In this document: one piece after another, positions 8,771 to 63,018 of the stretch | Position numbering within the stretch: position 1 is the first letter of the stretch | How the letters are laid out: each line of letters opens with the position of its first letter | Source: Chlorobium sp. | GTDB lineage: Bacteria; Bacteroidota; Chlorobiia; Chlorobiales; Chlorobiaceae | DNA length: 64,000 nucleotides | Direction: 5' to 3' | NCBI GenBank assembly: GCA_005862285.1 | Contig: SZXW01000003.1 | Span: 124,001 to 188,000, forward strand | Notes under the pieces: generated by a model | The model's database searches: none | Told to the model about the DNA's origin: nothing | Seen by the model: only the letters and a program-made list of their open reading frames with translations | Program-made: the position numbers and the translations under genes

Positions 8771-11700
8771 TTATGCTTTGAGCAGTTCCCTCATCAGTTC
8801 AAAAAGCTCATTTTTTTTGACAGGCTTTGTGATGAAACCGTCACAACCCGCTTCCTCAGCTTTTGTTCTGTCATCTTCTGATGAAAATGCCGTTTGGGCA
8901 ATGACGGGCAGATCAGGCCTGATCTGCTTGATCATTCTTGTTGCATCGTACCCGTTCATGAAAGGCATTTTTATATCCATCAGTACAATATCTGTTTCGG
9001 GATGTTGTCTGACGAGTTCGACAGCTTCATTGCCGTTGCCGGCTGAAATAACAATGATGTTATCTCCCTGAAGGGTTCTTGTCAGCAGCAATCTGCTGAC
9101 TTCGTCATCTTCGGCCAGCAGGATCGTAAGACCGGGTGACGGATCAGGAGCGCTCTGCATATTCCTGATGTTTTTTTTACTTGCAGATTTTTTCGAGCCA
9201 GGCGGATTATAAGGCAGAGTGAAAACAAACTTGCTACCCTTGTCGCTTCCCGACTCAACCCAGATAGAGCCACCGAGCATTTCGATATAAGCTTTCGAAA
9301 TGCAAAGACCGAGACCTGAACCTTCATGATTGCGTGTAAGGGAGTTGTCGAGCTGCCTGAAACGGTCGAAAACATTTTCTTTCTGTTCCGCCGGTATTCC
9401 TATACCTGTATCGGAGACATAAAACTCCAGCATATCCTGATTTTTTAAGTATCCGAATTCAATCTGACCTTCATGAGTGAATTTCAGGGCATTCTGGATC
9501 AGGTTTGTCATGACCTGGATCAGTTTTGTTTCATCTGTTTCGATCGTGTCTTTCGTATCAGGCAGTCCCGGCCTGCAGATAAGCATCAATCCTTTCTTTT
9601 CCGTCTGTAGCCTGAAGAAGGCATGTAAATCCTGAAGCTGTTTGTTGATGTGGGTTTCGGAAACCTGCAGCAGGGTTTCTCCAGCCTCGATACGGGAAAT
9701 ATCGATAAGATCGTTTATCAGGTTGAGCATCCTTTCTCCGCTCTGCTGAATGAGAGCGATATATTCCTGCTGTTCCTCCCCGGACAGGTGGGGTTCCTTC
9801 AGCAGTTCCGAGAAGCCGAGAATACCGTTCATCGGGGTTCGGATTTCATGGCTGATGTTGGCAAGGAAAGCACTTTTCAGCCGATCGCTTTCCTCGGCTT
9901 TTTCTTTGGCGGAGACCAGTTCCGCCCAGAGCTTTTTCTTTTCGGTAATATCTTCCTTTACAGCTACAAAATTGGTGATAATTCCCTTTTCATCCCGAAT
10001 TGCCGACACAACGGCTTCTTCCCAGTAGAGTTCGCCATTTTTCTTTTTGTTGTGAAATTCTCCATACCAGACTTTTCCTGAAAGAATGGTTTTCCAAAGA
10101 TTTTCGTAAATCTCCTTTGGCATCATGCCCGACTGAAGGATACGAGGATTTTGTCCTCTGGCTTCCTCGAGAGTATAACCGGTATGTTCGGTAAACGTCG
10201 GATTGGCGTAATCGATATTTCCATCCGGATCGGTAATGACAACTACGGCGGGGCTCTGCTGAACGGCGATGCTCAGCTTTTTCAGTTCATCTTCCGCAAG
10301 CTTTCTTTCTGTAATGTTGGTTGAAGTACCGATGATTCTGTCTATGTAACCAGAATCGTTGCGAAGAGGGTTGAGTGATGTTTCCCAGAATGTTTCCTTT
10401 CCGTTGAACATTCTTTTTTCTTCGAATTGTATGGTTCTTCCTTTTTTCAGGCACTCTTCGAAATGACCATTTATCTCTCTGGCTATTGAAGGATCGAAGA
10501 GCTCTTCCGGAGTTTTACCGGCAATATTGTCGTTGCTGAAGCCAGACTGTTTTTCATGGTTTCTGTTTATTCCCCTGAACCGGAACCTGCCCCCTGCATG
10601 AACATCGACGACAAAAATGGAATGATTTACGGCATCATAGATGCTCTGGAGAAACTGACGGCTCTCAAGCAGTTTCTGTTCATATTCCCGGCGTTTGGCA
10701 TCGATATTTTTCCTGTCGGTGATATCTCGTATCAATCCGATCAGACCTGGATGCTCCTGATCCTGGTAATATCTGATATGACATTCTCCGAAGAAATTTA
10801 TGCCGTTTTTTTTCCGGAATTTCAGTTCGACTATCTGATCGTTCAACTGCTCCTTCAGTACATTATGGAAAATGTTCATGCCTTTTGAAACTTCTTCTTC
10901 TGCAAGAAATTCCAAAAAAGAATGTCCGAGCACTTCTTCCTGTACATTGAAACAGAACATTTTTTCTGCTGCATCGGAGACATAGGTCACATGTCCTTCA
11001 GCATCGATCAGGAATACGACTTCGGTCATCTTTTCGGTAATGGAACGGAACTTTCTTTCACTTTCCTGCAATGCCTGTTCTGTCAGCTTGCGAGCCGTTA
11101 TGACATCGAATACAGCAACAAAACATGCTTCTTTGTGCCTGTAAACCATGATATCGAGCCAAATATTCAGAGATTTGGAATACATTTCGAAGCGATCGGG
11201 TATGCCACTGCTGACGACCCTGGCAAGCTTCTCGAAAAATTCGGGATTTTCTTCCCGTATGTCAGGAACAAGTTCGGTAGCTTTACGTCCGATGACATCC
11301 CGAAGTCCGGTCATCAGCGAAAAACGTGCATTGACATCTTCATGTACGAAATCGACCGGCAGGCCGTTTTCAAAAATCATCCGGCAGTACGCAACAGCGT
11401 TCAGTGTATTGTTGAACAGCGAACGATGCCTTTCATTGCTTTCGAGAAGCAATTTTTCCGATTGTTTCCGTTCGGTGATGTCCATTACGACACCGATCAT
11501 TTTCACCGGTTTTCCTGACGCATTGAAAATGGGTCTTCCACGCGACATCATCCAGCGTACGCCTTTGCTTGTATCATTGACGAGCCATTCTACCCGGAGT
11601 TCAGTTCCTTCGAGCATGGCTTTCTGCGCTTCTCGAGCAACTTCTTCACGGTAGTCGGGATGGATGGATGAAATCCAGCATTCATAAGACGGTTCACAAA

Positions 11701-13204
11701 TACCGGGTTCCAGTCCGTAGAGTTCCCACAATTCTTCTGACCAGAAACTCCGGGATGTCGATAGGTCAGTACACCATGAGCCGGATTTTGCGGCATCCTG
11801 CGCAAGTCGGCGATGTTCCTCGCTCTGACGGAGCACCTCTTCCTTTTCCGCCCGTTCCATGATATCTGCAGTCTGGTTTGCAAGCAGTTCGAGCATTGTC
11901 AGGAGCCTTTTGTCAGGATGACTTGCAGCGCGGTAGTAAATCGACAGAATGCCCAGAAGATCGCTGTTCCGGTTTTTAAGAGGTATCGATTGAACTGCAT
12001 GAACTCCTGCCGCGAGATGTTCCTCGAGCTCTGTTTTGTTGCCGACAAAGGGGCTTTGCGTGATATCTTCAATAACAACCTTCTCATTGCGTTTCATGGC
12101 CATATCGCAAAGGCAGTCTCCTTCACCGGTGTAATTGCATAATTCCTTCAAAGGATGGTCGAAACCCTGCTGTTCAGTGATTTTAAGATGACCTGATTCG
12201 GGATCAATAAGACGGATGTTTCCCATATCAGCTCCGGAAATTTCAAGTGCAACAGCAATAACTTTCTTGAATATTTCCTGCAGGTTGCCTTCCCGGACAT
12301 ACAGCATTGATATTTCCTGCAGCTTTGACATGGCCTTCAGGTCGGCATCCAGGGATAGCTGCGATGAAATGAGGTTTTTTCTTGATTGCTTTAGCTCGGT
12401 TATATCGAGGGAATACACGACGAATTGCTGTATAACCCCCTCCATGTCTTTAATCGGGGTAATATTGTGAACTCTCCAGGCATTATTGTCTTCACTTTCA
12501 AATGTCATCCGTTTTCCGGTTCTCATTACTTCAAGAACCATTTCTTTCCTTTTTTCAGCGACTTCTTTCGGGAAAAATGTATAGACAGATTTCCCGATGC
12601 ACTCTTCGTGTTTTTTCCCGAACCTCAGGGCAAACGCGTCATTTGCTTCAAGGATTATACCAGTGCGGTCAAAGAGGAAGATGGATTCAGGAATGGAATT
12701 GATCAGCAGACAGAGGGGGCATTCCGAGGTTCGAGAGGAATGATTTTCATCCGGCTTTTTTGTTATATCATGACGGTCAACATTCTTATTGAAACGTGAA
12801 ATTTCCCGTAAGATCATCAATGTTCCGGCAGCTTTATTCTCATCATCAAAAAGGGGGATAACTTTGCATTTAACCGAGTTTTCGGCTCCGGAACGCTTTA
12901 TCAGCACACTTTCAAAAGTGAAGGGCTCGGTTCTGTTTCCTGTTGAAAAAGTCTGTATAAAGTCATTTTTTAAATCAATAGGTTGTTCTTTATTCGGGAA
13001 ATTCAGGACAGCATCGATTTTTCTGCCCTCTGCATCTTTTTTTTTCCAGTCGGTTATCGATTCAGCAGCATCATTGATGACCACAATGCAGCCATTTACA
13101 TCTGCAAGGATTACTGCATCATCAATGTTGTTCAACAGAATTGATGTAAGATGCCGGTTAGAATGCAGCTCCATTGAAGAAATTTTTAAACTTTTAAAGC
13201 ACAC
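8771..13204 (-). CDS. multi-PAS/GAF hybrid sensor histidine kinase
   Basis: Up to 1477 residues; the Met at residue 11 (MELHSNRH) is an alternative start. Approximate order: two PAS domains (20-275), a GAF domain (300-455), five more PAS/PAC units (465-1105, several ending in DITERK-like boundaries), HisKA with [15 protein letters not shown] (near 1130), HATPase_c with GSGLGLCISK, and a C-terminal receiver (LLAEDDEVSR, VLMDIKMPFMNG, FITKPV). No membrane segment is evident, so it is likely a cytoplasmic multi-input sensor. Redox, light or small-ligand sensing are all possible because PAS cofactors cannot be read from sequence. No partner regulator lies next to it. It converges with the lipid kinase gene. 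Confidence 0.93.
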   Translation of the reverse strand: MCFKSLKISSMELHSNRHLTSILLNNIDDAVILADVNGCIVVINDAAESITDWKKKDAEGRKIDAVLNFPNKEQPIDLKNDFIQTFSTGNRTEPFTFESVLIKRSGAENSVKCKVIPLFDDENKAAGTLMILREISRFNKNVDRHDITKKPDENHSSRTSECPLCLLINSIPESIFLFDRTGIILEANDAFALRFGKKHEECIGKSVYTFFPKEVAEKRKEMVLEVMRTGKRMTFESEDNNAWRVHNITPIKDMEGVIQQFVVYSLDITELKQSRKNLISSQLSLDADLKAMSKLQEISMLYVREGNLQEIFKKVIAVALEISGADMGNIRLIDPESGHLKITEQQGFDHPLKELCNYTGEGDCLCDMAMKRNEKVVIEDITQSPFVGNKTELEEHLAAGVHAVQSIPLKNRNSDLLGILSIYYRAASHPDKRLLTMLELLANQTADIMERAEKEEVLRQSEEHRRLAQDAAKSGSWCTDLSTSRSFWSEELWELYGLEPGICEPSYECWISSIHPDYREEVAREAQKAMLEGTELRVEWLVNDTSKGVRWMMSRGRPIFNASGKPVKMIGVVMDITERKQSEKLLLESNERHRSLFNNTLNAVAYCRMIFENGLPVDFVHEDVNARFSLMTGLRDVIGRKATELVPDIREENPEFFEKLARVVSSGIPDRFEMYSKSLNIWLDIMVYRHKEACFVAVFDVITARKLTEQALQESERKFRSITEKMTEVVFLIDAEGHVTYVSDAAEKMFCFNVQEEVLGHSFLEFLAEEEVSKGMNIFHNVLKEQLNDQIVELKFRKKNGINFFGECHIRYYQDQEHPGLIGLIRDITDRKNIDAKRREYEQKLLESRQFLQSIYDAVNHSIFVVDVHAGGRFRFRGINRNHEKQSGFSNDNIAGKTPEELFDPSIAREINGHFEECLKKGRTIQFEEKRMFNGKETFWETSLNPLRNDSGYIDRIIGTSTNITERKLAEDELKKLSIAVQQSPAVVVITDPDGNIDYANPTFTEHTGYTLEEARGQNPRILQSGMMPKEIYENLWKTILSGKVWYGEFHNKKKNGELYWEEAVVSAIRDEKGIITNFVAVKEDITEKKKLWAELVSAKEKAEESDRLKSAFLANISHEIRTPMNGILGFSELLKEPHLSGEEQQEYIALIQQSGERMLNLINDLIDISRIEAGETLLQVSETHINKQLQDLHAFFRLQTEKKGLMLICRPGLPDTKDTIETDETKLIQVMTNLIQNALKFTHEGQIEFGYLKNQDMLEFYVSDTGIGIPAEQKENVFDRFRQLDNSLTRNHEGSGLGLCISKAYIEMLGGSIWVESGSDKGSKFVFTLPYNPPGSKKSASKKNIRNMQSAPDPSPGLTILLAEDDEVSRLLLTRTLQGDNIIVISAGNGNEAVELVRQHPETDIVLMDIKMPFMNGYDATRMIKQIRPDLPVIAQTAFSSEDDRTKAEEAGCDGFITKPVKKNELFELMRELLKA

Positions 13205-15731: not shown

Positions 15732-16559
15732 AGCTTCACGGAAGAGGATTTTAAGAAACATCAAGGTCGTTTTAAACGGAATCCGGTCACTGTTCGTGAT
15801 AAAGTAGAGCACTTCAAGCTGAACCGGTCCATGATCCGCTATTTCCCGGCATTTTCAGAAAGACGGTTAAGTCATTGCGGGATATGGATTTTGATCATCA
15901 GGATCCGCTAAAAGGCTGGTGGTTGTCAGTCTTTTCTGTTTCAGGGTTTTTTGAAAGCTGAAACAAAGATGGGTAAAGTATTTTCCTATCGATTTCGGCT
16001 GCCATCTATACCTGTGACATTTGAGCTTGTGAAGGCATTCAGATGGAAGCTGTTGATTAAGAACACTGCAGGTTTGATGTAATTCACGTAAGAAGTGAGT
16101 GATGCAATTCATGTAAGGATCTTGTTCCAGCGTCCGTTAAGTTCCGTAACTTATTGATTTATATTATCATGTTATTTGCGAACAAACAGGTTTTCATAAC
16201 TATTTTATTTCATGGATTTATCGGTTTAAATACGCGTTATTTGTTATTTAAACAAGTTTTAATTATTATCAATTGTAAATTTTTGGTTACCTTGATTCAG
16301 TTGCCTGTCGTTTTACAGTTGTATTCAATGACAGTACTGCAATAATACTTGGTAGCTGTATTCAGGTATTGAAGTATTCAGGGTATTCTGATACATGCTT
16401 TATCATGCACGAACTGACGATTTCCACGATCTGACATTTACCATTGATATTTCGAACTGTTCCCGATGTGATCATCTTCTTTTGTTTTCGCATGTTCTGA
16501 ATGCGTAGCGGGTTTAATTTTCTTTATTTTTCAACATCGTCAATAGTAGGGGGATAGTT
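15732..16559. other. long intergenic region before the cytochrome-porin gene
   Basis: About 830 bases. The left part (to about 16150) is of mixed composition with only short, stop-broken frames; it could be a decayed gene, but no family was recognised. The right part (16150-16550) is very AT-rich and likely holds the promoter and a long leader for the cytochrome-porin gene. A partly palindromic AT-rich stretch at 16261-16279 (aattattatcaattgtaaa) loosely recalls an iron-regulator box. A ribosome binding site (tagggggat) lies just before the ATG at 16560. Confidence 0.45.
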
Positions 16560-17858
16560 ATGAAAAGATCACCTTTCTTTCTTTTTATGGCCCTGATGTT
16601 GTCCATTTTTTTATGGAACAACGATGCATCGGCCATTCCTGCATTTGCGCGGAAATACCATACGGCTTGTTCCACCTGCCATCTTGCTTTTCCTGTCCGG
16701 AACGCGTTTGGTGAGGCTTTCAGGAACAACGGCTACCGTTTTCCGGACAGCACCGATGAAGAGATGGTCAAGGAAGAACCGATAAAACTCGGTTCGGATA
16801 ACTACAAAAAATTGTTTCCCCAGGCAATCTGGCCATCCGACATACCGAACATGCCCTCTTTCGGTCTTCTCGCAAAAGTCGACGCCTCGTTGCCGAAAGA
16901 CCGTTTTAGCGGCAAGTTCAAGAATTCCCAAATCGATGAAGAGCTCGATATTTTCTTTGGTGGAACGATTACAAACCAGATCAGCTACATCGGCGATTTA
17001 TCGGTTACTCCCGACAATACAACCCTTGGACGCATATTGCTTCTCTGGACGTTCAAACCAGGTATAACCATGGCAATGGGCACGGTCGGTTTCCCGGAAC
17101 AGTTCGACCTCATATCAACCCATTCTGGCAGCGATCCGAACGGTTATGCTGCTCAAATGCCGAATCCAAACAAGGGTATCGAATTAAGATTTACAGGGAA
17201 TTTTGAAAAAACGGGGGGATATGCTCTTGTCGCCGGTGTAGGCCGGAATTCCCAGACAGACGGCGCTGCCCCGCTTGTTCCTCCAGGTGGTGAACCGGGA
17301 GGTTCGTTTATCGATACGAAGTATGTGAGGGCCGCTGTCAAGATAGGCGGCAGCGGATTGCTGAGCGGTTCCGGAGGTGAACTTGGGAACCAGTATATCG
17401 GTCTTGACAATTCGATCACGATCGGTGCCAATTTCTACAATTCTACCCATGGCGGTAATGTCAATGCGGCCGATTATACCTATGGCCTTACCAAGACAGC
17501 ATATTCCGGCGATGTGAGAATCAATTACGGCAACATGCGCCTTGTTGGTCAGTATGCTCATTTTGTTGAAGTTATCGATCCCGCTACCGGATGCGATTAC
17601 GGCAGCAGGGATGCGGTTTCACTTGAAGGCGATTACTGGATTTATCCATGGCTTTTCGGTGTTTTCCGCTACGAACATCTGAAGGACAATTTCAATGGAG
17701 AGTACACCAAACTTATTCCCGGAGTCGGTGTTCTGTTGAGACCTAATGTCAAGATGGGTATCCAGTATGTGGCGGTAACGAAAAATACCTTTACAGACCC
17801 GTTTGATATATATATGCCTGAAAGTTCCTGGAATCTTTATACCCAGATTGGTTTTTAG
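16560..17858 (+). CDS. secreted monohaem cytochrome-porin fusion, Cyc2-like outer-membrane protein
   Basis: 432 residues. A signal peptide (MKRSPFFLFMALMLSIFLW, cleavage near NDASA) leads into IPAFARKYHTACSTCHLAFP: a single CXXCH haem site about 15 residues into the mature protein, followed by RNAFGEAFRNNGYRF. The remaining 350 residues have the alternating Gly/aromatic pattern of an outer-membrane beta barrel and end in Phe, as barrels often do. This layout is that of Cyc2, the outer-membrane Fe(II) oxidase of Acidithiobacillus and neutrophilic iron oxidisers, with homologues known in Chlorobi. Some cytochrome-porins have other or unknown roles, so iron oxidation is a hypothesis. A terminator follows, then a cupredoxin gene. 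Confidence 0.75.
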   Translation: MKRSPFFLFMALMLSIFLWNNDASAIPAFARKYHTACSTCHLAFPVRNAFGEAFRNNGYRFPDSTDEEMVKEEPIKLGSDNYKKLFPQAIWPSDIPNMPSFGLLAKVDASLPKDRFSGKFKNSQIDEELDIFFGGTITNQISYIGDLSVTPDNTTLGRILLLWTFKPGITMAMGTVGFPEQFDLISTHSGSDPNGYAAQMPNPNKGIELRFTGNFEKTGGYALVAGVGRNSQTDGAAPLVPPGGEPGGSFIDTKYVRAAVKIGGSGLLSGSGGELGNQYIGLDNSITIGANFYNSTHGGNVNAADYTYGLTKTAYSGDVRINYGNMRLVGQYAHFVEVIDPATGCDYGSRDAVSLEGDYWIYPWLFGVFRYEHLKDNFNGEYTKLIPGVGVLLRPNVKMGIQYVAVTKNTFTDPFDIYMPESSWNLYTQIGF

Positions 17859-17902
17859 CGAGGCAGTCGGTTTTCAGAAAAATCTTTCGATGAATCTGGC
17901 AC

Positions 17903-17946
17903 GGTGTGCATTCCATAAATCTATATGTGAGTGCACACCTTTTTTA
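17903..17946 (+). terminator. rho-independent terminator after the cytochrome-porin gene
   Basis: ggtgtgca (17903-17910) pairs with tgcacacc (17932-17939), with a 21-base loop, followed by a run of seven T. It would make most cytochrome-porin transcripts end before the cupredoxin gene. Confidence 0.8.
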
Positions 17947-18112
17947 TAATGTTTACGATTAACAATCGTGACTTGCATTGTCCTGTTTTCTGCATGTTGT
18001 TTTTCGATTTGCAGAAGCACTGCAGGTACAGTTCAGGTTTGTCTGCTCAAATTCCCCAATGAAGAAATTGTTATTTGTTAAATACTAAAAATATTGAACG
18101 AGGAGGTTGAAA

Positions 18113-18715
18113 ATGGTTAAAAGCTTGTCACGGGTTACGAAAACAGCTTTATTTATTACAGGTTTCGGTCTGATTGCATTGAACGGTTATTGTAACGGCA
18201 CGATAACCGGTGTTATCGAGACAGACTTAGCAAAGAATAAAAAGGATGTTGTGGTTTATCTGAAAAATGTCGGAGTGCCTGTAAAACCGCGCACTGTTTC
18301 TGTTGACCAGCACCATATGTTGTTCAATCCCAGAGTGATTACCGTTCCGGTTGGTTCAACCGTCGAGTTTACCAATCATGATAAAATCTATCACAATGTC
18401 TTTTCCATAAGTGACCCGAAAAAGTTCAGCCTCGATACCTATGCGCACGGTTATTCGAAAAAAGTTACATTCGACAGACCCGGAGCTGTCAACCTGCTCT
18501 GTCATGTACATGCTGAAATGTCTGGTTGGGTTATCGTTACGCAAAATCAGTACGCTACCGTGTCCGAGCATGACGGGGAATTCAAGATCCAGGATGTTCC
18601 TGCAGGAACATATGAGGTAGGAGTCTGGAGCGAAACACAAAAACCGGTCGGGAAAATAACAGTGACGGTAAAAGATGGTCTGACCACGGAAACAACTATC
18701 AAATTGGGTAATTGA
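18113..18715 (+). CDS. exported blue-copper (cupredoxin) protein with C-terminal beta-sandwich
   Basis: About 200 residues from ATG 18113, chosen because aggagg (18101-18106) lies 6 bases before it; a TTG at 18107 overlaps that site. An N-terminal hydrophobic segment (TALFITGFGLIALNGYC) should direct export. The middle has cupredoxin features: VPVGSTVEFTNHD, then YHNVFS, and LLCHVHAEMSGWVIV, supplying the His, Cys, His and Met ligands of a type 1 copper site. The C-terminal 60 residues (FKIQDVPAGTYEVGVW) resemble a carboxypeptidase-regulatory-like sandwich. It follows the cytochrome-porin by 254 bases and could accept electrons from it in the periplasm, as rusticyanin does in Acidithiobacillus. 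That link is inference. Confidence 0.82.
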   Translation: MVKSLSRVTKTALFITGFGLIALNGYCNGTITGVIETDLAKNKKDVVVYLKNVGVPVKPRTVSVDQHHMLFNPRVITVPVGSTVEFTNHDKIYHNVFSISDPKKFSLDTYAHGYSKKVTFDRPGAVNLLCHVHAEMSGWVIVTQNQYATVSEHDGEFKIQDVPAGTYEVGVWSETQKPVGKITVTVKDGLTTETTIKLGN

Positions 18716-18756
18716 CAGAAATTTTATTGTTTGTTCGTTTTCTTGATGTTGTTCGA

Positions 18757-18784
18757 AAAGCCCGATATAAAGCGGGCTTTTTTG
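18757..18784 (+). terminator. rho-independent terminator after the cupredoxin gene
   Basis: aaagcccg (18757-18764) pairs with cgggcttt (18773-18780) around an 8-base loop, with T-rich sequence after the stem, 42 bases past the stop. Confidence 0.85.
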
Positions 18785-20749: not shown

Positions 20750-21487
20750 ATGGATATTTACCGTCAACCTTCCGGGAAAGACCGGGATAGTTTGAAGAAA
20801 TCCGCACCCAGACTGCCGGTTTCAACCAGGGAAAGCGATTTCATGGTAGATGGATGGAGGGTATTCAAGATCATGGCGGAATTTGTCAGCGGTTTCGAGA
20901 TGATGTCTGATGCAGGTCCGGCTGTTACGGTTTTTGGTTCGACAAGAGTTCACGAGGGAAGCCCTGAGTATATGCTTGCCGAAAAGCTTGGAAGCCTGCT
21001 CGCTGCAGAGGGATTTTCAGTGATTACCGGAGGTGGTCCCGGAGTGATGGAGGCGGCGAACAAAGGAGCTCAAAGCGCAGGCGGGGTATCTATCGGTTTC
21101 AATATCAAACTTCCCAATCAGCAGCATCCGAATAAATTTATCGATTACGGAAAGCTGGTAAGTTTTCAGTACTTTTTTGTCCGCAAGGTCATGTTTGTCA
21201 AATATGCCCAGGCTTTCATCGCTCTGCCGGGCGGTTTCGGCACGCTCGACGAGGTGGCGGAAGCCATTACGCTTATACAGACAGGAAAAAGCGAACGGTT
21301 TCCGGTCATCTTGCTGGGAAAAAGTTACTGGGAAGGCTTTTACCGCTGGATTTGCGATACCATGTTCCGTGAGAAGGGTTATATAAATGAAGATGATCTT
21401 GGATTCATCCATCTTGAAGACAACCCTGAAAAAGTGATCACGATCATCAGGGAATTTTATCCGGAAGGGTATACCCTGAATTTTTGA
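20750..21487 (+). CDS. LOG-family protein (nucleoside 5'-monophosphate phosphoribohydrolase type)
   Basis: 245 residues, TIGR00730-type Rossmann fold. Key motifs: VFGSTRVHEGS, ITGGGPGVMEAANKGA and ALPGGFGTLDEVAE, the PGGxGTxxE signature of the LOG/lysine-decarboxylase-like family. The family cleaves AMP or cytokinin nucleotides to the base and ribose 5-phosphate. It starts 18 bases after trpG. The 3' end overlaps the convergent haem-protein gene by 41 bases, so one stop lies inside the other coding region. Confidence 0.88.
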   Translation: MDIYRQPSGKDRDSLKKSAPRLPVSTRESDFMVDGWRVFKIMAEFVSGFEMMSDAGPAVTVFGSTRVHEGSPEYMLAEKLGSLLAAEGFSVITGGGPGVMEAANKGAQSAGGVSIGFNIKLPNQQHPNKFIDYGKLVSFQYFFVRKVMFVKYAQAFIALPGGFGTLDEVAEAITLIQTGKSERFPVILLGKSYWEGFYRWICDTMFREKGYINEDDLGFIHLEDNPEKVITIIREFYPEGYTLNF

Positions 21488-21932
21488 TGTTTATTTTCTG
21501 AAAGCTGCCGGTCTGCCTGAACCATTCCAACAGAACTCGTTGTTCCTCTGCCGTAAATCTTGCTCCCGGATTCCAAAAGTAATAGCACCACTGATGATCA
21601 TTTCCGTGTTGAATCACATTTCTGATTTTGTTGAACTCCTGATTGCTGTCCGTCTTTGTTGCCTTGCCCAATATTGAAAAATTCAGGGCATGGCGACCCG
21701 AAGCGACTTTCCAGGACGCCAGCCATGATAACGGTGCTATGTATGCAATTCCGGTCCAGTTTGTTTCAAAGGAATGGCAGTCGTAGCAGGCTTTTTTCAG
21801 GGGTTTTTTTACCGTTTCGGGTGCTGCTATATCTGAAACGGTGTTCGGATTTATGCGGTTCAGTGGTATGAATTGCATGAGTATCAGTAAAAAAATTGTC
21901 CAGCTGGCAATTGTTTTTATTGAAAGATTCAT
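21447..21932 (-). CDS. small membrane-anchored haem-binding protein (Haem_bd family)
   Basis: 161 residues. An N-terminal hydrophobic anchor (IASWTIFLLILMQFIP) is followed by KKACYDCHSFETNW, a single CXXCH haem c site, and then PLSWLASWKVASGRHALNFS and EEQRVLLEWFRQT, all typical of the Haem_bd/DUF family of small periplasmic monohaem proteins. It is probably a periplasmic electron carrier or haem sensor. It diverges from a small HTH gene across a 69-base region with repeats, and overlaps the LOG gene by 41 bases at the 3' end. The partner is unknown. Confidence 0.83.
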   Translation of the reverse strand: MNLSIKTIASWTIFLLILMQFIPLNRINPNTVSDIAAPETVKKPLKKACYDCHSFETNWTGIAYIAPLSWLASWKVASGRHALNFSILGKATKTDSNQEFNKIRNVIQHGNDHQWCYYFWNPGARFTAEEQRVLLEWFRQTGSFQKINIKNSGYTLPDKIP

Positions 21933-57374: not shown

Positions 57375-58091
57375 CTAACCAAGATATGCTTCTGCAACGG
57401 CAGGATTTTTTGCAAGATCTGCGCTGGGCCCTTCAAGGACAACCGTGCCCTGTTCCATGATGTAAGCACTGTCAGTGACCGAAAGGGCGTTTCTTGCGAA
57501 CTGTTCCGAAAGCAGAATCGTCATTCCCGATTTCCGCAAGGTGACGATTGCCTCGAAAACCTCTTTCAGTACAAGGGGAGCAAGTCCCATCGAAGGTTCA
57601 TCAAGAATAACGAGGCCAGGTCTTGCCATGAGCACCCGGCCGATTGCGAGCATCTGCTGTTCTCCACCCGAAAGGCTTCCCGCCTGCTGAGACCTCCGCT
57701 GTTGCAGAATTGGAAACATATCGTAGATTTTTTCGAGATCTGCTGAAGCTTTCCTTCGGAACGGGCCTATTGAAGGCAACCGGGGGAAGGCTCCAAGGAG
57801 AAGGTTTTCCTCGACAGAAAGTGGTGCGAAGACATGCCTTCCTTCCGGGCAGAGACACAGACCTTTCCTTGCTATACGACTTGCCGGGAGCCCGGAGATC
57901 TCCTTCCCCTTGAAAAGGATCTGGCCTTTTCGAGGTACGAGAAGACCGCTGAGTGTCCTGGCAAGGGTAGTTTTACCGGCGCCATTTGCCCCGACGAGAG
58001 CGACACAGCTTCCTTCAGGTACTTCGAGGGAAATTCCTTTCAGCACATCGGAGCCGCCATAACCTGCGTGCAGGTTCGTTGCTTTCAGCAT
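57375..58091 (-). CDS. livF: branched-chain amino acid-type ABC transporter ATP-binding protein LivF
   Basis: 238 residues from ATG 58091 (MLKATNLHAGYGGSDVLKGI). Walker A is VGANGAGKTTLARTLSG, the signature is SGGEQQMLAIGRVLMARP, and Walker B is LVILDEPSMGLAP, with LSEQFARNALSVTDSAYIME near the C-terminus in LivF style. Its start overlaps the end of the livM-livG fusion by 7 bases. The substrate of the system is uncertain. Confidence 0.92.
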   Translation of the reverse strand: MLKATNLHAGYGGSDVLKGISLEVPEGSCVALVGANGAGKTTLARTLSGLLVPRKGQILFKGKEISGLPASRIARKGLCLCPEGRHVFAPLSVEENLLLGAFPRLPSIGPFRRKASADLEKIYDMFPILQQRRSQQAGSLSGGEQQMLAIGRVLMARPGLVILDEPSMGLAPLVLKEVFEAIVTLRKSGMTILLSEQFARNALSVTDSAYIMEQGTVVLEGPSADLAKNPAVAEAYLG

Positions 58092-60001
58092 GGTTCTTCC
58101 TCCGTTTTGATCATGCATGAAGCATGCAGATCTTCAGCTCCGAGATAAGCTTCGATTACCCTGGGATTTTTCCTGATCTCTTCCGGCGTTCCAAGTGCGA
58201 TCAGACTGCCTCCGTTCATGACGGCAACACGGTTGCAGAGTTCGGTTATAACATCCTGGTGGTGTTCGATCAACAGAATTCCTATGCTTGCGGTTTGTTT
58301 GATCGAATCGATCAGTCCTATAAGACGGGTAATATCGGGTTTTGACATTCCGGCAGCTGGCTCGTCAAGCATCAGGATGCGTGGACAGGTTGCAAGGGCT
58401 CTTCCGATCTCGAGAAAGCGAAGATCGCCGAACGACAGTTCAGAACATCGTTTTCTGGCTTTATCCTCCAGACCAACGGTACGAAGAAGCCCCATAGCTG
58501 CCGGTCTGTCAACCTTTTTCTGGCAGACTATGATTGAATCGAGTGCGGTAAGACTGTAAAATGGTTGAAGATTCTGAAAAGTCCGGGATGCTCCTGCAGC
58601 AGCTGCAGCCATCAGGCTGCCATGCCTGGGATGCGATCCTGCGATTTCGATCGAGCCGGTGTCGGGGGAGTAAAGTCCGCTTACAAGGTTTATCAATGTT
58701 GTTTTTCCAGAACCATTCGGGCCAACAAGACCGACAACCTCTCCTGGTTTTATTTCAATGGAAAAAGTGTCCACTGCTGTTACCCCTCCGAAAAATTTAG
58801 TGAGGTGTGATGTACGTAAAGGGTACCCGGTAAGCACTTTTGGTGAAGGGATTGAACCTTTCGCTTCGGGCAGAGGCTCGGGGTTGAAAACAAGTACATT
58901 GTTTACGGCTGCAGTCAAAGCTCCTGCAATGCCGTCAGGAAGTCCCACCACTGCGGCAAAAAGAAAGAGCGCAAAGATTCCTTTTCGCCACTCTTCAATA
59001 TTTGGGACGAAAAAAGAAAGCAGAAGAGCGAACAGCATTGCACAAGCAGGTGCGGCTTCATTGAAGGAGGGCATTCTCCTGGATATGAGTGTTTTGACCG
59101 GAGAAATAAATGCAAGCAAGCAGCCGGTCGAGACCAAAGCAGAGAACAGGAACCTGTTCGAAAGCAGATTGGGGAGCATCGTAACGACAGCTGCTCCCAG
59201 AAATGCACCCCATTGGCTTCTTCGGCCGCCAAATACAACACCGAGCAGCAGTACTACCATGAGTTCGTATCCGAAAGCGGCTGGTTGGAGATAGCCGAAA
59301 TTCATCACATGCAGACCTCCGGCAAGTCCGGCAAGCGCACTGCCCCAGGCAAAGGCAAGCACTTTGTGCCTCAGCGATCCTATACCGAGAGCATCTGTAG
59401 CGGTAGGGGAGTCATGTAAAGCTTCGATAGCCATGCCTATCCGCGACTTGAGTAACTGGTCGGATGCCAGCCAGATGGAGTACAAAACCACAAGGCAGAA
59501 CCAGTAGAAGCCAGTCGGGTCGAGTTTGATTGAAAAAAAAGACGGCCGTTCGATGGTGAGGCCAAGCGCTCCGTTCGTTATGGATTCACATTGATTGAGA
59601 ACAACGATGGTCAGTGATGCGAAAGAAAGGGTGGAGAGCGCGAATTGCGGTCCTTCCAGTCTCAGTGACGGTATCGCAAGGGCCGCCCCGGGAATGAATG
59701 CGGTTATGATACCAGCCAGCAGAGCGAAGGGAAATGGTGCTCCGGCTTTTATACTCAGAGCGGTTCCGTAGGCACCGATGGCGAACAGGGCGGCATGTGC
59801 CAGATTGACCTGCCCAAGGTATCCGACGGTCGCATCGAGTCCGATGAGCAGGACCCCGTAAACCGCCATGAGCGTGAGCAGGCCGAGAGCATACTGCCCA
59901 TGCCAGACTGACGGCAGGAAAGCGAGAAATAAAAAAAGAACTAAACGAAGGATATGTTCAGCTGTTTTTTCTTTAACTCCCGGATTGATGCTGCTGAACA
60001 T
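58085..60001 (-). CDS. fused LivM permease and LivG ATP-binding protein
   Basis: 638 residues from ATG 60001 (MFSSINPGVKEKTAEHILRL). Residues about 15-350 are a LivM-type permease with roughly nine membrane segments (IGLDATVGYLGQVNLAHAAL; MNFGYLQPAAFGYELMVVLL). After a further membrane stretch, residues about 400-638 are a LivG-type ATPase: VGLVGPNGSGKTTLINLVSG, LSFGDLRFLEIGRALATCPR, ILMLDEPAAGMS and the LivG-like C-terminal YLG. Both halves keep their motifs, so this is a true fusion rather than a frameshift. It starts 10 bases after livH. Confidence 0.9.
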   Translation of the reverse strand: MFSSINPGVKEKTAEHILRLVLFLFLAFLPSVWHGQYALGLLTLMAVYGVLLIGLDATVGYLGQVNLAHAALFAIGAYGTALSIKAGAPFPFALLAGIITAFIPGAALAIPSLRLEGPQFALSTLSFASLTIVVLNQCESITNGALGLTIERPSFFSIKLDPTGFYWFCLVVLYSIWLASDQLLKSRIGMAIEALHDSPTATDALGIGSLRHKVLAFAWGSALAGLAGGLHVMNFGYLQPAAFGYELMVVLLLGVVFGGRRSQWGAFLGAAVVTMLPNLLSNRFLFSALVSTGCLLAFISPVKTLISRRMPSFNEAAPACAMLFALLLSFFVPNIEEWRKGIFALFLFAAVVGLPDGIAGALTAAVNNVLVFNPEPLPEAKGSIPSPKVLTGYPLRTSHLTKFFGGVTAVDTFSIEIKPGEVVGLVGPNGSGKTTLINLVSGLYSPDTGSIEIAGSHPRHGSLMAAAAAGASRTFQNLQPFYSLTALDSIIVCQKKVDRPAAMGLLRTVGLEDKARKRCSELSFGDLRFLEIGRALATCPRILMLDEPAAGMSKPDITRLIGLIDSIKQTASIGILLIEHHQDVITELCNRVAVMNGGSLIALGTPEEIRKNPRVIEAYLGAEDLHASCMIKTEEEPC

Positions 60002-60011
60002 GGTGAAATAC

Positions 60012-60896
60012 TTAAACTTTACGGATGATTTTTTTCCCGAAAATTCCCTGGGGACGGAGAGCGAGAGCGAGAATGAGCAGGATAAGTCCGGGAGTTTCAC
60101 GCCATCCGCTTCCAAGGAGAAAACCGGAGAGATTTTCAACTGTACCGAGGAATATACCTGTGAATACAAGTCCGATTGCGCTGTCGAGTCCTGCTACCAC
60201 AGCAACGGAAAACGCCTTGAGTGTCAGAGCAGCCGCCATTGTCGGACCAACAGTGGTGACAGGCCCGATAATCGTCCCGGCAAAAGCTGCAGCGGCACCG
60301 GAGACCGCCCAGGAGAGAGATGTTGCAGAGGTTGAACGGATTCCGCACAGTTCCGCTGCGTCCGGATCTGCACTTACCGCCTGTACGGCAATGCCGAACA
60401 TCGTGCAGCGTTTTGCGATCTCGATCAGGATCATTGCGCCGAGGGCACCCGCGGCAATCGTAATTTCAGGCCAGGTTACCGAAATGCCGTAAAAATCTAT
60501 CGAGCCATCCTGCCAGGGAACGGGATATGGTTTGTCCTCACGGCCCCATATGTTTTCAGCTGCCGAAACGGCAAAAAGTCCGATGATAATGGTGAGCAGT
60601 ATCCATCCTTCATTATGTTGTTTCAATGCAAGACGAACAGCACTTCGTTCGACAAACCATCCGAGTCCGGTTCCGACAGCCATCGCACCAGCGATCGACA
60701 GCCAGTACGGGATTCCTATACCAGTAAGAGTCAGGCCAACGAAAGCACCAAGCATGACAAGCTCTCCCTGGCCGAAGTTGACCGCCTTGCCCGCGGCAAA
60801 GGTCAGCTGGAATCCGTAAGCCACCAATGCATATGCAAGGCCCATGAGAGCTCCGCTGACGGCCATCTGGGTATATGCCAGAATTTCCGGGTTCAT
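60012..60896 (-). CDS. livH: branched-chain amino acid-type ABC transporter permease LivH
   Basis: 294 residues from ATG 60896 (MNPEILAYTQMAVSGALMGL); the frame extends 10 codons upstream. About eight membrane segments; the start LMGLAYALVAYGFQLTFAAG and KAVNFGQGELVMLGAFVG are typical of LivH. SADPDAAELCGIRSTSATSL is the coupling loop. It forms the channel with the LivM domain of the next gene. Substrate uncertain. Confidence 0.92.
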   Translation of the reverse strand: MNPEILAYTQMAVSGALMGLAYALVAYGFQLTFAAGKAVNFGQGELVMLGAFVGLTLTGIGIPYWLSIAGAMAVGTGLGWFVERSAVRLALKQHNEGWILLTIIIGLFAVSAAENIWGREDKPYPVPWQDGSIDFYGISVTWPEITIAAGALGAMILIEIAKRCTMFGIAVQAVSADPDAAELCGIRSTSATSLSWAVSGAAAAFAGTIIGPVTTVGPTMAAALTLKAFSVAVVAGLDSAIGLVFTGIFLGTVENLSGFLLGSGWRETPGLILLILALALRPQGIFGKKIIRKV

Positions 60897-60932
60897 TTTT
60901 CCTGATTCACTGAATGAAAAAACCAATACAGG

Positions 60933-62159
60933 TCAATTCCGGTTTCTATCCAGCAATGCTTTGTCACCAGGATTTGCAAGCACGACCCGTCCGTTTTCAA
61001 CTTTTCCCATTACAGTATAACTTCTTCGGAATGCTTCGTGGGATTCCTCATTTGCCGGGTCCCATTTCGACCATGGTTTTTTCCAGTCGGTGATGGCTCC
61101 TTTTACAACACCGGTGAGGTTTTCAAGCGCTGCCTTGATTTTTGACGGCTGTGTGGATCCGGCCTGATGGATAGCCTCGGCAAGAAGCAGGGCTGAATCG
61201 TAACCCTGTGCGGCTGATACTGGTGAAGGGATCCTGTTGACTCCATAAACCTTGCGGTATGCCTGGATGAAGGGTTTTGCCCTCGCGATCGATTCATCCT
61301 CGATGAATGTCTGAGGCATGAGTGCTCCATTGCCTGCAGGACCTGCAGTATCGATAAAATTGCTCATCGACAGTGTCCATCCTCCGATCATCGGAACATT
61401 GTAACCAAGTTTCTTTTTCCCCGAAGCGACCGCTGCCAGTTCAGGCCCTATACCCCAGATTAGTATTGCCTGGGCTCCGGCGATTTTTGCCTTCATAAGC
61501 TGCCCGGTCATGTCCTTGTCACCGATTGCGAACTTTTCGATGGCAACAACTTTCAATTTTTCGCCCTGATTCCGGATTTGCGAAAGCAGGTCATCACGTC
61601 CCGAAACACCGTAATTGGTATCGTCATGCAGGATTGCAACCCTCCTGGCACCGAGTTTTACAGCCTGTTCCACAACCATCTGCGACTGGATACCATCGTG
61701 AGCCGCAAACCTGAAAATTGGAATATCCTGGATTCCGGCCTTGCTCCATTGGGTCATGGAAGCACTGCCTGCTGCAGGGCTGATGATTTTGACGATGCCT
61801 TTCTGCACATAGTATTTGTCTCCCATTATGGCAATGCCGGTATTGACGGTGCCGATAACCGCCGAGACATCATTCATCGATGATATCTCCTGTGCCACAA
61901 GGGCACCGCGGTCGTTTTTGCCTTCGTCATCCCTTTCTATGATTTCTATTTTCATTTTTTTTCCCGCTACGTCAATTCCTCCTTTCTGATTGATCTGCGC
62001 AATGGCAAGTTTTGCGCCATCCCGCATCGAAATGCCCATCGGGGCTGATCCTCCGGAAAATGGTCCTGTAAGGGCTATTTTCACCACATCTGCAGCCGTG
62101 GCTGTTGCGGAGCATGAAAACGCAAGCAAAAGGGCAAGAAAGGAACGATGTGCATTCAT
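60933..62159 (-). CDS. branched-chain amino acid-type periplasmic binding protein
   Basis: 408 residues. Signal peptide (MNAHRSFLALLLAFSCSATA, cleavage near TAA), then the type I periplasmic-binding fold: VVKIALTGPFSGGSAPMGIS, DGAKLAIAQINQKGGIDVAG, VSAVIGTVNTGIAIMGDKYY and VGMIGGWTL-like NVPMIGGWTLSMSNFIDT. It has no lipobox and is likely soluble in the periplasm. It heads the operon livK-livH-livMG-livF. The binding residues do not settle whether the ligand is leucine/isoleucine/valine, another amino acid, urea or an amide. Confidence 0.88.
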   Translation of the reverse strand: MNAHRSFLALLLAFSCSATATAADVVKIALTGPFSGGSAPMGISMRDGAKLAIAQINQKGGIDVAGKKMKIEIIERDDEGKNDRGALVAQEISSMNDVSAVIGTVNTGIAIMGDKYYVQKGIVKIISPAAGSASMTQWSKAGIQDIPIFRFAAHDGIQSQMVVEQAVKLGARRVAILHDDTNYGVSGRDDLLSQIRNQGEKLKVVAIEKFAIGDKDMTGQLMKAKIAGAQAILIWGIGPELAAVASGKKKLGYNVPMIGGWTLSMSNFIDTAGPAGNGALMPQTFIEDESIARAKPFIQAYRKVYGVNRIPSPVSAAQGYDSALLLAEAIHQAGSTQPSKIKAALENLTGVVKGAITDWKKPWSKWDPANEESHEAFRRSYTVMGKVENGRVVLANPGDKALLDRNRN

Positions 62160-62544: not shown

Positions 62545-63018
62545 ATGCCTCGTTACACTCCGGAACAGCTCGTCAAAAGGAATGCTTCCGTCTGGACCGA
62601 TATCCAGATCATTCTTGCCCCGGTCCAGTTCATTTTTTTCGTTGCCGGAGTTACTGTTACCACGCTTTATGTAAATGGATTATTTCAGAACAGTTTTTAC
62701 TGGGTCAGCATAGCCATTCTCTTCAAGACCCTGTTTTTTGCACTGCTTTTTACGACCGGCATGTTTTTCGAAAAAGAGATTTTCGATCAGTGGGTTTACT
62801 CGAAAGAATTTCTCTGGGAAGATATCGGAAGTACCGTCGCTGCGTTTTTCCATCTCTTTTATTTTTATCTCGCTTTCTTTGATTATCCCCGTGAAGTGTT
62901 GGTATGGGATGCCTATATCGCTTATTTCACCTATGTGATCAACGCCATGCAGTACCTGATCAGGATCATACTTGAAAAACGAAATGAACGCAGAATGAGA
63001 ATGGAAGGGCATCTGTAA
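62545..63018 (+). CDS. bchF: 2-vinyl bacteriochlorophyllide hydratase family (BchF/BchV)
   Basis: 157 residues with three to four membrane segments. The start [20 protein letters not shown] and the following [15 protein letters not shown] are highly characteristic of Bch[21 protein letters not shown] and [16 protein letters not shown] match later family blocks. It hydrates the C-3 vinyl group of a bacteriochlorophyllide, in the photosynthetic pigment pathway at the membrane. Green sulfur bacteria carry two paralogues, BchF (for BChl a) and BchV (for BChl c/d/e); I cannot tell which this is. A small membrane protein gene follows after 10 bases. Confidence 0.87.

Follow-up and report, generated by a model that had tools for sequence, protein, structure and literature searches.

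A cytochrome-porin and a blue-copper protein of Chlorobium form a candidate outer-membrane electron-transfer pair distinct from Cyc2 proper

In a stretch of 64,000 nucleotides from a Chlorobium genome (G000; 2.61 Mb in 15 contigs; the stretch, C9:124001-188000, is called the window here), an exported monohaem cytochrome-porin, CP1, is followed by an exported cupredoxin, CU1, and the two are best explained as an outer-membrane electron-transfer pair in which CU1 acts as periplasmic carrier, a reading to which we give a probability of roughly 0.56. CP1 would form a 16-strand porin whose barrel carries a short N-terminal haem domain on its periplasmic side. Fe(II) or reduced humic or dissolved organic matter, as a small donor from outside, would enter the pore and reduce the haem, from which the electron would pass to CU1, the blue-copper protein of the periplasm. 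CU1 could then deliver it through a cytochrome c to the reaction centre, or exchange it with quinone through the complex encoded beside a second porin, CP2. We infer the haem-to-copper transfer, its direction and the nature of the donor, and electron flow through CP1 and CU1 is probably inward. The preliminary description of this DNA had proposed a Cyc2-like electron-uptake module; its functional guess is right in kind, while the label Cyc2 needs correction. The features are collected in Table 1.

Table 1. Features of the CP1-CU1 region, in window coordinates.
Feature	Position	Strand	Basis
Ribosome binding site of CP1, AGGGGG	16548..16553	+	sequence
CP1, exported monohaem cytochrome-porin, 432 aa, 'FARKY' branch of the Cyc2 superfamily	16560..17858	+	
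AIPAFARKY motif of CP1 (Cyc2-defining AXPXFAR[Q/K][T/Y])	16632..16658	+	sequence; definition PMC8406198
CXXCH haem-binding motif of CP1 (CSTCH, residues 37-41)	16668..16682	+	sequence
Predicted 16-strand beta-barrel of CP1, residues 101-432	16860..17855	+	AlphaFold; OprP/OprO matches
Intrinsic terminator between CP1 and CU1	17903..17945	+	
Ribosome binding site of CU1, GAGGAGG	18100..18106	+	sequence; conserved among relatives
CU1, exported cupredoxin, 200 aa, with C-terminal carboxypeptidase-regulatory-like domain	18113..18715	+	
CU1 copper ligand His94	18392..18394	+	
CU1 copper ligand loop Cys130-x-x-His133-x-x-Met136	18500..18520	+	
Terminator-like hairpin downstream of CU1	18755..18782	+	consensus match only

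Export signals, haem motif and copper site of the pair are recognizable in the protein sequences, and the barrel of CP1 in its predicted structure. CP1 begins with a signal peptide (approximately residues 1-24/25), followed by AIPAFARKYHTACSTCH and a long beta-rich remainder. Its only CXXCH, a motif expected 0.0003 times from composition alone, places C37, C40 and H41 inside the first 20 mature residues, as had been noticed earlier, and these three residues are invariant among 58 relatives, in which no second axial ligand (His or Met) for the haem is invariant. The barrel-like remainder seen in the preliminary description, which had proposed to model it, is borne out by an AlphaFold model built with the 58 relatives (pLDDT 78, pTM 0.77), which predicts 16 strands with a helical domain at the N-terminus. 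Confidence is lowest in the haem domain (below pLDDT 50 at residues 20-32), and the position of the haem is to be taken as putative because the stretch in front of it is of low confidence and the model contains no haem. Among solved structures, the best matches are OprP (2o4v, Z 23.2) and OprO (4rjx/4rjw, Z approximately 23; range 22.8-23.2), with ordinary 16-strand porins ranking below at Z 21-22. Searches of Pfam and NCBIfam with CP1 returned no family up to E 1, and a sequence search for solved relatives gave none that were meaningful.

Cyc2 fused cytochrome-porins, with the Chlorobium members as Cluster 1, have been defined in a study that also likens the Cyc2 barrel to OprP/OprO (PMC8406198). 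CP1 shares with them the signal peptide, the single N-terminal CXXCH, the motif AXPXFAR[Q/K][T/Y] just upstream of it (AIPAFARKY-HTA-CSTCH), a length of at least 365 residues (432) and the predicted 16-strand OprP/OprO-like barrel. It differs in carrying FARKY where Cyc2 has FARQT, and in the PXL that Cyc2 proteins carry four residues past CXXCH: CP1 reads LAF-PVR, so that PVR takes the place of PXL one residue nearer the haem, whereas the genome's own Cyc2 reads FEQY-PML after CXXCH; most relatives outside Chlorobi have PKL at three residues from the haem motif. G000 holds two further haem-porins besides CP1, namely Cyc2 proper on C1 (C1:464921-466159, FARQTGFSCTACHFEQYPML) with a small monohaem cytochrome c just upstream, and CP2 on C7, which shares 41% identity with CP1. 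A tree of 85 proteins, rooted on Cyc2 and containing Cyc2 of Chlorobium (Cluster 1) only, shows one group each for CP1, CP2, a third type termed CP3, Chlorobium Cyc2 and the porins from other phyla; CP1 (100/99) is sister to CP2 plus CP3, and the Cyc2 group stands apart from the CP porins (99/98). The separate Cyc2 on C1 and the separate clade rule out CP1 as the Cyc2 of this genome; of the earlier assignment, the Cyc2-like fold stands and the identity with Cyc2 does not. Homology between the CP1 and Chlorobium Cyc2 families is firm, judged by comparison of their profiles (Prob 99.2, E 7e-20, 366 columns), and its sequence puts CP1 in a 'FARKY' branch of that superfamily, the Cyc2 superfamily, present in approximately ten phyla among the matches listed. 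The CP3 proteins (PSWARKY...; loci L031-L036 and L091-L137) make up a third kind of haem-porin in Chlorobi; a c5-type cytochrome or ResB is often encoded close by, a cupredoxin is not. Small monohaem cytochromes adjoin 19 of 21 Chlorobium Cyc2 genes and 12 of 21 CP3 genes, and the combination of Cyc2 with a small cytochrome on one side and of CP with a cupredoxin on the other looks like an exchange of the periplasmic carrier. The carrier is also different between the known pathways, being rusticyanin in one and Cyc1 in another.

For CU1, the ATG at 18113, preceded by GAGGAGG, is a better start than the TTG at 18107. The protein matches PF00127 (6.9e-9) and is, as described earlier, an exported cupredoxin on the same strand with a complete copper site (H94, C130, H133 and M136). 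Its structure model (pLDDT 91.5) resembles the NirK cupredoxin domain, pseudoazurin, amicyanin and plastocyanin, and the predicted plastocyanin-type fold together with the His-Cys-His-Met site make CU1 a type 1 cupredoxin; rusticyanin is absent from the matches listed for sequence or for fold, these being to the NirK domain, plastocyanin, pseudoazurin and amicyanin. Cysteine, second histidine and methionine of the site are invariant in 35 cupredoxin relatives, and the first histidine is nearly so, being Asn in some Nitrospinota and Myxococcota copies. A second, carboxypeptidase-regulatory-like domain (approximately residues 143-198) had escaped the preliminary description. Between the two genes, the terminator consists of the arms GGTGTGCATTC/GAGTGCACACC followed by TTTTTT, with a fold z of -4.4, and the hairpin and T-run are kept in four relatives (L008, L009 and L010 among them), two of which differ in sequence. 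This conserved strong hairpin with its T-run argues that CP1 and CU1 are separate transcription units in their own lineage, and it backs the earlier suggestion of separately tuned expression. A search for a common regulatory motif upstream of CP1 and CU1 gave only chance-like repeats.

Outside Chlorobi, the partnership of porin and cupredoxin proved to be real: its gene order, as read from the sequences, is kept in other phyla and goes together with genes of complex III-type (quinol-oxidoreductase) enzymes. A scan of a genome collection found at least 569 relatives, of which the best 80 were kept, and neighbouring genes outside Chlorobi were taken from lists of open reading frames, with Pfam scans of examples. 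A CU-family cupredoxin lies directly downstream of the porin on the same strand in 20 of the 23 sampled non-Chlorobi loci, which come from Ignavibacteriota, Calditrichota, Bacteroidota, Nitrospinota, Gemmatimonadota, Acidobacteriota, Myxococcota, Thermodesulfobacteriota and Zixibacteria; it is upstream in two of the remaining loci (L106 and L118) and absent from the third (L130, a short contig). The gap between the genes is 12-117 bp in the 17 loci where a stricter pattern caught the cupredoxin. Rieske and cytochrome-b genes continue the run in five loci (L089, L117, L125, L127 and L132), to which the longer contigs add an 8-haem cytochrome and a small cytochrome c, and L089 also an FeS-flavoprotein. 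In L114 the run instead takes in genes for a pentahaem, a molybdopterin and an FeS protein and for NrfD, an operon resembling that of alternative complex III in its sequences. In L089, L117, L127, L114 and L124 the pair is preceded by genes for a sensor kinase and for a response regulator of the sigma-54 type, which suggests two-component control outside Chlorobi. In a plasmid collection, CP1 had one weak match, from Methylocystis, with cytochromes c and no cupredoxin downstream, and the cupredoxin had matches of approximately 30% identity annotated as 'methylamine utilization protein'.

Within the green sulfur bacteria, a comparable run, a second bc-type cluster of these organisms, is found at CP2 (L006:822-8870; G000:C7), where the order is CP2, Rieske protein, 2[4Fe-4S] ferredoxin, cytochrome b in two parts, an octahaem protein of 873 aa, cytochrome c and a cupredoxin, CU2, divergent from ResB/CcsA haem-lyase genes. 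This order recurs in many Chlorobiaceae MAGs and also in L074 and L075-L090; in L074, from Chlorobium sp. L227-S-6D, a small cytochrome and Cyc2 follow directly after the cluster (L074:17334-18673). Compared with the NCBIfam models ExtP, ExtQ and ExtS, the bc subunits reach 258/290, 54/150 and 96/100 bits, all below cut-off. The Geobacter cluster extHIJKLMNOPQS, which has been linked to selenite and tellurite reduction, likewise combines a phosphate-selective-type porin with Rieske, cytochrome b and multihaem cytochromes, but its porin ExtI is devoid of a haem or cofactor motif, whereas CP1 and CP2 carry CXXCH, and it contains no cupredoxin (PMC5877670). CP1 might by analogy be a solute or oxyanion porin whose haem is structural, sensing or gating, with CU1 serving copper handling, given that its barrel is of the phosphate-selective OprP/OprO type and that ExtI, whose loss impairs the reduction of selenite and tellurite, is encoded beside a homologous bc complex. 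We consider this very unlikely, since C37, C40 and H41 are invariant in CP1 where ExtI has no haem motif, and the co-occurring genes encode electron carriers rather than copper chaperones or pumps.

The cupredoxin tree points to the origin of the pair in the window. CU1 (three sequences, 100/100) nests among CU2 proteins of Chlorobi (98/91 together with seven of them). A cupredoxin copied from the CP2 cluster therefore became the neighbour of CP1, which itself branched off before CP2 and CP3 split. The sequences place this move in the lineage of L001, L008, L009 and L010. In the last of these, the cupredoxin beside CP1 (L010:2931-3530) is frame-broken, falling into three frames with stops, and is either a pseudogene or an assembly error. 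No cupredoxin adjoins most Chlorobium CP1 genes (L011-L025), which stand beside a LysE-type gene or others; that they are unpaired, and that one of the four paired cupredoxins is broken, weakens the explanation as an electron-transfer pair. A CP2-type porin with an adjacent cupredoxin outside any bc cluster is found in G016:C34 (L186). Among 61 Chlorobium genomes, with kinship ignored, a cupredoxin is present in 25 of the 26 that carry CP1 or CP2 and in 0 of the 35 others, a co-occurrence that partly counts one event twice because CP2 and its cupredoxin lie in the same cluster. Solitary CP1 genes would suit a further Cyc2 dedicated to Fe(II) with an incidental cupredoxin next door, as would the separate terminators and ribosome binding sites and the motif, haem and length of CP1, with which it passes the screen published for Cyc2. 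We regard this as improbable, because the adjacency recurs in approximately ten phyla, the cupredoxin with which the pair in the window formed anew is a copy from the CP2 cluster, and G000 already has a Cyc2.

As an electron-transfer pair, CP1 and CU1 resemble known routes in part. The Cyc2-rusticyanin system of Acidithiobacillus ferrooxidans also joins a haem porin, a periplasmic blue-copper protein and a bc complex, but the present host is a neutrophilic anaerobic phototroph, the cluster has no oxidase, and CU1 is plastocyanin- or NirK-domain-like with a C-terminal sandwich domain. In the Mariprofundus model, a haem porin likewise feeds a periplasmic carrier and a complex III-type enzyme (ACIII/bc1), the carrier there being the cytochrome c Cyc1 (PMC5566968). 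The direction of flow is less certain than the parts, as many relatives are heterotrophs in which flow could be outward. In the dark, for instance, a Rieske/cytochrome-b complex could oxidize quinol and pass electrons via the cupredoxin and the porin to an acceptor outside the cell; relatives in heterotrophic lineages of metal-reducing type (Ignavibacteriota, Calditrichota and Acidobacteriota) and the resemblance, below cut-off, of the bc subunits to ExtP, ExtQ and ExtS from the cluster of an Fe(III) reducer (PMC5877670) fit such an export. It is nevertheless unlikely, given that all characterized proteins of this fold, three Cyc2 representatives, oxidize Fe(II) (PMC8406198), that the host as a phototroph needs donors rather than acceptors, and that bog-lake Chlorobium takes up electrons in the light (PMC12285243).

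G000 carries DsrA and is therefore not an obligate photoferrotroph. Of the 61 Chlorobium genomes, 21 lack DsrA, and every one of these encodes a CP porin or Cyc2 (p = 0.011 with kinship ignored; p = 0.16 in high-quality genomes), an association that is weak as evidence and was not seen for CP1 alone (p = 1). A report on Trout Bog describes Chlorobium populations with 'three homologs of Cyc2' that show light-driven oxidation, one homolog being transcribed far above the genes for other donors (PMC12285243). The MAGs GSB_A June25 Bin_2 and GSB_B Oct13 Bin_1, which we take to be these populations, hold both CP1 and CP2 types (L063 and L088; L068 and L081), and G049, by matching contig coordinates a GSB_B genome, also holds Cyc2.

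Homologs of Cyc2 in Chlorobium were thus already known from that report, which counts such porins as Cyc2 homologs and, in the passages found, describes neither a separate branch nor a cupredoxin partner (PMC12285243); it is the pairing of haem-porin and cupredoxin that is of interest, and no link of Cyc2-type porins to the CU1 family was found in the open-licence literature. Because cyc2 serves as a marker of Fe(II) oxidation, its counts have to be read differently once the CP porins are set apart as a branch of their own that has another periplasmic partner. In Chlorobium genomes without Cyc2 and DsrA (11 of the 61, all of which carry a CP porin), the CP porin is also a candidate for electron uptake that can be tested, and its pairing with a cupredoxin would be a neutral-pH parallel to Cyc2-rusticyanin in approximately ten phyla. 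More tentatively, with odds that we place somewhat below even, these porins may represent an undescribed, widespread haem-porin branch that uses a blue-copper protein as dedicated carrier and is coupled, in many phyla, to a Rieske/cytochrome-b complex or to alternative complex III; if true, the branch would offer green sulfur bacteria a Cyc2-independent uptake of electrons from outside donors.

Elsewhere in the window, a short exported protein with one CXXCH (ACYDCHSFETNW) is encoded at 21447-21932 (-), approximately 2.7 kb beyond CU1, and a 1477-aa multi-PAS hybrid histidine kinase at 8771-13204 (-), a few kb upstream of the pair. A run at 57375-62159 (-) reads, from its translations, as an ABC transporter of the branched-chain amino acid or urea type, with two ATPase-type genes, permeases and a binding protein. 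The bacteriochlorophyll gene at 62545-63018, which we take to be bchF, fits a green sulfur bacterium.
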